Assembly (NCBI GenBank): GCA_949927415.1
Contig: CATLFB010000003.1
Location: forward strand, 248,001-312,000
Length of the DNA stretch: 64,000 nt
DNA from: an uncultured Candidatus Melainabacteria bacterium
Lineage (GTDB): Bacteria; Cyanobacteriota; Vampirovibrionia; Gastranaerophilales; Gastranaerophilaceae
Direction of reading: 5' to 3'
Shown here: positions 19,205 to 20,266 of the stretch, one piece after another
How positions within the stretch are numbered: position 1 is the stretch's first letter
Layout of the letters: each line of letters starts with the position of its first letter
The notes under the pieces: model-generated
Databases searched by the model: none
Seen by the model: only the letters and a program-made list of their open reading frames with translations
What the model was told of the DNA's origin: nothing
Program-made: the position numbers and the translations under genes

Positions 19205-19243
19205 GCCGGTGCTTTTTTGAATTTTTAAATTAGTTTTAAATGA

Positions 19244-19283
19244 AATAAACATCCCTAAATGAATATTTGAGGGATGTTTATTT
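19244..19283. terminator. bidirectional terminator between convergent genes
   Basis: AAATAAACATCCCTAAA pairs with TTTGAGGGATGTTTATTT (one mismatch) across a short loop, with T-rich sequence on both strands. It serves the tandem paralogues from the left and the prepilin-like gene from the right. Confidence 0.88.
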
Positions 19284-19294
19284 TTAATAACGCT

Positions 19295-20210
19295 TTACAA
19301 TTTCTTTGGATAATCCTTTGGAAATTCATACTGGTTTTCTTCCAAAAGCATTGTGCACTGGGTGCCTTCATTTTTGCAGTTTGTTATCATTTCTTCGTGT
19401 GTGGGATATGGCACTCCGGGTGGCATGCACCACATTGGTCTGACATTGTTGCTTGGATGATTACAGACGCCTTTATTTTTGCAGAGTATAAATGGGAAAA
19501 TGTCTACGCCAATTTCGTTTGGCTTTTTTTCCCCGTTTACATCAAAGTAAATATCATAGCAAGCACCAATTTTGATACTCATTTGCGAGCCGTCGAAAAA
19601 TCTGATAGTCGCCATGTTATGGCCTGCGAGTACTCTTTTTTTGATGCCGTGATTTTTTACGTATGGTTGAATGTAGGTTTTTAAAAAAGCTTCTGCACCT
19701 TCCGATGTATTCATTTCACTGCTGATTGCCCAATCGGCTCTGGGTCCATGCTCATTTTCTGCATACATAAGAGTTTGATTGATCACAGAAACAAACTTTT
19801 TAATCCTTGCTTCAGCTTCTTTTTTTTTGGCGCTTTCTGAAATCGCAGGCAACGTCATTGCAGCAACAATTCCAATAATTCCAAGCGTAATCAATACTTC
19901 GGCCAGTGTGAATGCCCTATTGGACGCAAGTTTTCCAAATCCTGCACTTTTACACCTAATTTTGTAATCAGCGTCGCCTCCTAATACAAACCCAATGCCT
20001 AAAAGTAGACTTCGTCTAATGCACCTGTAAAAGTTCACCAACCACGTCACAAGACATAAATTTTTCCCAGCGGCTTCATCTAATTCCGGACTTATACCTC
20101 TAATTTCGTCGTCAGCGCCGCTTCCTAATACAGACCCAATGTTTAAAAGTAGACTTCGTCTACCCCCCCCCCCGCTTCTGGAAGGTAGTCATATCAATGG
20201 TTTTAGCCAT
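19295..20210 (-). CDS. phase-variable prepilin-like protein, out of frame as sequenced
   Basis: The body carries a type IV prepilin signal, NRAFTLAEVLITLGIIGIVAA (quoted in part: AFTLAEVLITLGIIG), with Glu at mature position 5 and an unusual Ala before the cut, then a small pilin-like domain with several Cys. A good promoter, Shine-Dalgarno (AGGAG, 20216-20220) and ATG at 20210 open a frame reading MAKTIDMTTFQK that enters 11 consecutive G (20163-20173) and stops at TAG immediately after. With one G fewer, or two more, that frame joins the pilin frame exactly, giving about 304 residues. The joined leader contains a 62-base repeat twice in frame. Without the upstream start, translation could begin only at internal codons such as GTG at 20050, which lack a good binding site. 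Confidence 0.75.
19957..20018 (-). repeat. 62-base leader repeat, inner copy
   Basis: It matches the outer copy at 54 of 62 positions and lies 144 bases (48 codons) from it, so both encode related peptides (RRSLLLGIGFVLGGDADYKIR here). It contains the hairpin-forming TAGACGAAGTCTA. Confidence 0.8.
20101..20162 (-). repeat. 62-base leader repeat, outer copy next to poly-G
   Basis: The outer copy encodes RRSLLLNIGSVLGSGADDEI in the pilin frame and directly abuts the G tract. Its ACATTGGGTCTG core is identical to the core of the repeat unit at 2523-2688. Confidence 0.8.
20163..20173 (-). repeat. homopolymer of 11 G, putative phase-variation switch
   Basis: Eleven C on the plus strand (G on the coding strand) sit 12 codons into the reading frame. 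Tract lengths of 10 or 13 restore the prepilin frame; 11 gives a stop directly after the tract. Confidence 0.75.
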
Positions 20211-20237
20211 AATCGCTCCTTTCGCTATTCTCTTTTC

Positions 20238-20266
20238 ATTATAACAAAATTTTTTCACAATTTCAA
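20238..20266 (-). promoter_or_regulatory. promoter of the phase-variable prepilin gene
   Basis: On the minus strand TTGAAA (20266-20261) and TATAAT (20243-20238) are 17 bases apart, about 28 bases upstream of the ATG at 20210. Confidence 0.85.

Follow-up and report, generated by a model that had tools for sequence, protein, structure and literature searches.

The locus described here is encoded on the minus strand of a window of 64,000 nucleotides, namely the whole stretch of DNA that was analyzed. A promoter-like element of the form TTGAAA-17-TATAAT with an extended TG lies at positions 20238–20266 and has 11 of 12 matches, as the earlier sequence-only reading of this DNA had proposed, even if promoter-like sites are region-wide no commoner than in shuffled sequences. 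It is followed by the Shine-Dalgarno sequence AGGAG (20216–20220) and by an ATG at 20210, from which a leader frame of 16 codons (MAKTIDMTTFQKRGGG) runs, as assembled, into a tract of 11 G (20163–20173) and ends at the TAG directly behind it (20160–20162; leader frame with stop, 20160–20210). These elements, already reported in the same reading, were all confirmed by direct inspection of the sequence. The tract, which we propose to be the switch, is the only run of at least nine G in the window, for a computed chance expectation of 0.03 such 9-mers, and a homopolymer of this kind within a coding frame is beyond chance.

From the tract onward, the prepilin frame extends without interruption over 288 open codons and a stop (19295–20161), as previously claimed. 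Removal of one G joins it to the leader in a product of 304 amino acids, the very fusion that had been predicted, and computation of the frames indicates that a one-base change toggles between full and truncated product in the window gene as well as in the other tract genes that we audited. An in-frame start is conceivable at the GTG of a shorter ORF (19295–20050), which is devoid of a Shine-Dalgarno sequence. Directly 3' of the tract there is a perfect small hairpin, GTAGAC-GAA-GTCTAC (20149–20163), the core of which (TAGACGAAGTCTAC) occurs again at 20005–20018. The latter stretch belongs to an 81-nt tandem duplication of the post-tract leader, with copies at 20082–20162 and 19938–20018 that share 83% identity at a spacing of 144; TAGACGAAGTCTA is found in both copies of this duplication, which sits between tract and pilin. 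No terminator-like site was found on the strand of the gene between leader and pilin in the window, and a hairpin with 17-nt arms located 3' of the gene (19243–19283) is the probable end of the transcript.

The prepilin frame carries a type IV prepilin signal, A/FTLAEVLITLGIIGIVAAMTLP (19853–19924), that scores above the cut-off of PF07963, in accord with the original identification of the gene. The predicted mature protein (19298–19912) is a pilin-like polypeptide of 205 amino acids with a DUF6613 domain, for which an AlphaFold2 model built on an alignment of 45 members (pLDDT 88.8) predicts an N-terminal helix of 53 residues followed by a beta domain, an arrangement like that of type IV pilins. 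At the N terminus the profile agrees with solved pilins and Glu5 of the signal is invariant in the 45 relatives, whereas the C-terminal domain, DUF6613-like in 23 of the 45 members, gives weak structural matches with known pilins (best Z 4.4 for MshA and 4.1 for PAK pilin); a Foldseek search with the predicted structure returned no match below 0.001, and this domain has no clear PDB fold match. The protein resembles type IV prepilins and pseudopilins (PF07963) in its FTLxE signal, invariant E5 and long N-terminal helix, but differs from them in its DUF6613-like C-terminal domain, with its weak structural matches, and in the unusual length of the tract-bearing leader. Four ATPases of the T2SSE/PilB/PilT type, which would belong to the assembly machine, score above cut-off in the same genome.

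This genome, of 2.18 Mb and 99.9% complete, is that of a gut relative of cyanobacteria, as the sequence-only reading had surmised, since its relatives place it in Candidatus Gastranaerophilales. A search for prepilin signals retrieved 82 prepilin genes in it, and in 41 of these a run of at least nine G or C lies no more than 900 nt before the signal (on the coding strand, 35 G and six C tracts). Because further tract modules break off at contig ends, a fair range for the tract genes of this genome is 41–50; what had been described as one locus is thus one of about 40–50, and the strong bias toward the out-of-frame state presented below had not been foreseen. The prepilin genes without a tract mostly have an ordinary in-frame Shine-Dalgarno sequence and start codon close to the signal. 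The leaders of the G-tract genes follow a common pattern, AAGGAGC..ATGAAAAA..ACTATGACTGAATTTCA-G12-CACCCG..GCTCCTT, while the window copy forms a separate small subfamily together with one other locus (L045). A non-pilin frame of 475 codons, around position 1502 of L063, has a G11 near its possible start and also carries one G too many. We also observed a 12-nt palindrome, CTACGCACGTAG, at 2527–2538 of the window and in L024, L150, L151, L156, L157, L162, L171 and others, which in several prepilin genes sits within a duplicated signal (FTLAEGATHVE...FTLAEV) and is present elsewhere as well; it looks like a dispersed repeat able to sit in frame.

To describe the state of each gene, we call it ON when the prepilin frame is in register with the start, and otherwise record whether one base must be lost (−1) or gained (+1) to bring it there, the neutral expectation being one-third ON. 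Among 39 audited tract genes of the window's genome, 35 need −1, three need +1 and a single one is ON; all six C-tract genes, five of which are within the 39, need exactly −1. Across 10 genomes with 126 tract genes the corresponding figures are 92, 27 and seven. Two congeners were added later as a check, and their 29 genes (19 needing −1, five ON and five needing +1) show the bias in the same direction, but weaker and short of the expected 75%/15%. In all, 155 tract genes were audited in 12 genomes of the family, of which 111 need −1, 32 need +1 and only 12 are ON, and the ON share is below one-third in every one of the 12 genomes (binomial p = 7e-14 for 12 of 155 against one-third, a value to be taken only as a guide given the relatedness of the genes). 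Named matches in GTDB220, which proved to include copies of genomes already sampled, were left out of these counts. At the level of the order, a scan for a tract plus STCC was positive in 83 of 192 genomes and in 22 of 45 genera, the matches lying with few exceptions in the window's own family, with the proviso that a control with the reversed pattern also yields matches and that low counts consequently mean little.

Tract length differs between genes with otherwise equal flanks in ways that shift the frame. In G049, nine such copies have G10 and are OFF while two have G11 and are ON; equal flanks also surround C11 and C12 in G143, and G11 and G12 in G174, all of them OFF. Moreover, syntenic orthologs of two species differ by one G, L276 (G011) being G12 and ON versus L281 (G007) G13 and OFF; the two loci align over 3 kb at 83%, and their promoter-leader-tract region is 97% identical. 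L131 (G003) and L273 (G007) are a second likely pair of syntenic orthologs that differ in phase, the former being OFF and the latter ON, and a leader-proximal stretch between them is diverged. In some loci the tract has been interrupted or shortened: L169 is fixed ON by G5-A-G6, whereas L153, L165 and L167 are fixed OFF in the unchanged OFF register. Such differences in length, among equal genes and between syntenic orthologs, support the earlier proposal of a contingency locus for a surface pilin assembled in its OFF state. Because no ortholog of the window gene was found in 13 congeneric genomes beyond the signal-peptide stretch, we only infer that this particular copy switches. Loss of mismatch repair was considered as a cause of slippage and rejected, since the genome encodes both MutS and MutL.

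Other runs were seen outside the pilin genes of the window's genome. Contig 8 of G006 (L092) has, on its minus strand, methyltransferase-like genes around positions 1481, 7526, 8184 and 9511 with G10, G9, G10 and G12, respectively; they contain the motifs DFFSGSGT and GGSPCQ, are in frame in some cases and out of frame in others, and judging from these motifs and runs they are likely to form a phase-variable methylation set. G055, of another genus, has 176 runs of at least nine G in 2.2 Mb (e.g. in L204–L231), nearly all on one strand over long contig stretches; the 10 runs sampled were all exactly 10 G, outside pilin genes too, a pattern for which a technical cause is possible.

The downstream frames are evidently maintained. 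Pairwise comparison of copies, almost all of them assembled OFF, gives dN/dS values of 0.10–0.63 in the prepilin frame, which is under purifying selection in these OFF copies. The consensus of the 155 audited genes favors OFF, and purifying selection on intact frames would imply that ON is occasionally used. The explanation that we consider quite probable is phase variation, by slippage of DNA, of a large repertoire of type IV prepilin-like genes that is OFF by default. Each gene has a start codon of its own, followed by a short leader and some 10–13 G (or C); the run would slip during DNA replication, and the gain or loss of one base would bring the prepilin frame into or out of phase with the start. 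Selection would hold most copies OFF in the majority of the population, with ON usually one slip away, and single cells would display few and changing pilins. This presumes that slippage is frequent and reversible within one lineage and that the proteins reach the cell surface, where immune, phage or niche pressure could be the cause of the variation. According to a passage of PMC4085013 that cites Bayliss and co-workers, G8-G9 tracts undergo mainly insertions and G10-G11 tracts mainly deletions; a deletion bias combined with selection against ON would gather the copies one base above ON, as in the window's genus. A uniform equilibrium length of slippage without selection was rejected, given that tracts of 10, 11, 12, 13 and 15 bases all retain the OFF register.

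Against phase variation stands the uniformity of the OFF register, which far exceeds that of known contingency loci and would suit programmed recoding no less than selection for OFF. Recoding would occur by slippage of RNA polymerase or by ribosomal frameshift on GGGG/CCCC, so that out-of-frame DNA would be the working state and a fixed share of the product would be full length. Such a scheme would agree with the purifying selection on OFF copies and with the presence of one and the same register in 102 of 124 copies of genus g1, in G and C tracts alike. It would also agree with the position of stop codons, which in the assembled frame follow within four codons of the tract in 107 of 119 OFF genes, as compared with about 10 codons typically in the other OFF frame; with the stop so close, the register of the assembly is apparently of long standing rather than a transient slip. 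Nevertheless, we regard recoding as quite unlikely. A single constant out-of-frame register is not what the family presents: G049 and G055 have predominantly the opposite register, both registers occur in G143 and G174, there are copies that are ON and orthologs that lie one G apart, and the distribution in these four genomes weakens the case for strictly directional programmed slippage in particular. Furthermore, the equivalence of G and C tracts suits an event in DNA more than a strand-specific event in RNA, and the loci with interrupted or shortened tracts (L153, L165, L167) keep the same OFF register. Transcriptional slippage on the tract, a side idea of the sequence-only reading, is possible but not needed.

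It could also be argued that the pilins are made from internal starts past the tract, the leader and tract forming a separate small ORF whose frame is irrelevant. GTG and TTG codons are indeed present past the tract in the window gene, but none of them has a Shine-Dalgarno sequence, and prepilins without a tract start normally, near the signal. In addition, the interval between tract and prepilin signal is free of ATG, GTG and TTG in 75 of 126 genes, and therefore the upstream start and its frame must matter; we hold internal initiation to be very improbable. A start at an internal TTG or CTG that immediately precedes the tract, in the ON frame, was considered and rejected since it has no Shine-Dalgarno sequence and the codon is not conserved.

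Two further explanations are hardly credible. Homopolymer length is the weak point of short-read metagenome assemblies, and the true tract could in principle be 10 G in an ordinary gene; yet an error of constant sign cannot explain why genes need −1 in some genomes but +1 in others, with G as well as C tracts, while the interrupted tracts of L153, L165 and L167, which are safely read, show the same OFF register and the assembled frame retains a stop immediately after the tract. That the tract genes are decaying pseudogenes, as their nearly general out-of-frame consensus might suggest, is contradicted by frames of 200–300 codons that remain open in nearly all copies, by dN/dS values well below 1 and by a promoter-leader region conserved at 97% against about 83% in the flanks.

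The tract of most G-tract copies is bracketed by a potential stem, in which the Shine-Dalgarno sequence is complementary to a stretch about 13 nt past the tract (AAGGAGCT with AGCTCCTT; in G049, AAGGAGA with TCTCCTT). The pairs belonging to the same gene are more stable than permuted ones, with a mean of −10.9 versus −9.5 kcal/mol (0 of 5000 permutations), and remain so when permuted within genomes (−10.9 versus −10.0 kcal/mol, about 1 in 5000); the predicted pairing of the Shine-Dalgarno sequence with the post-tract stretch is 0.61, as against 0.21 when this stretch is shuffled. Because GCTCCT occupies different reading frames in different paralogs, the nucleotides themselves seem to be under selection; the stem may serve to repress translation of the leader. 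The window copy is without this pairing, its longest exact match being 4 nt, and has the small GTAGAC-GAA-GTCTAC hairpin instead. One could go further and see in the out-of-frame register a regulatory design, whereby tract and bracketing stem would constitute a low-output, slippage-dependent and mRNA-structured device in dozens of pilin genes, their output being rationed by recoding or rare slips and not by promoters; we deem this unlikely.

If DNA slippage is the correct interpretation, an uncultured gut lineage adjoining cyanobacteria would possess a set of phase-variable surface genes, all of one family and OFF by default, that is among the largest of its kind, and this would account for differences in surface from cell to cell. 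There would be consequences for annotation, since about half of such a genome's prepilin genes appear broken and might be dismissed as pseudogenes or as errors of sequencing. With so many copies in each genome, the system also offers a natural laboratory for the effects of selection on tract length and reading frame. We found no relevant literature on phase variation in Gastranaerophilales or Melainabacteria, within a scope that excluded preprints and most subscription papers. By its sequence features, the system matches known G/C contingency loci and would work like them; its novelty lies in the host group, within the literature examined, in how many copies of a single surface family there are, in the pronounced OFF bias and in the stem that brackets the tract.

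The pil1 locus of Streptococcus gallolyticus (PMC3894217) is similar in that a leader repeat slips in a pilus gene, so that most cells are weakly and few strongly piliated. In pil1 the leader peptide is separate and acts by attenuation through a terminator (PMC3894217), whereas here slippage would fuse leader and pilin in one frame. Attenuation of that type does not fit our locus, in which leader and pilin form one frame when ON, with no terminator-like site between them.

In Neisseria, pilC is switched by a poly-G tract and the repeat of opa is CTCTT. The opa genes are likewise a multigene surface family with each copy switched by its own leader repeat, and pili are a target of variation too (pilC, pilE). 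Differences are that opa has far fewer copies, about 11 genes in the gonococcus (PMC3745409), that pilE varies by recombination, and that here the prepilin genes themselves bear the G/C runs. The poly-G/C contingency loci of Campylobacter (PMC6321876) are also alike, with many intragenic, frame-setting G tracts per genome in surface-related genes, low GC and paralogous groups such as maf. Their tracts are mostly 9–10 G and the ON share in draft genomes is closer to neutral drift (PMC6321876), whereas in the genomes studied here tracts are of 10–13, ON is rare and one protein family with a common leader module accounts for most of the tract genes.
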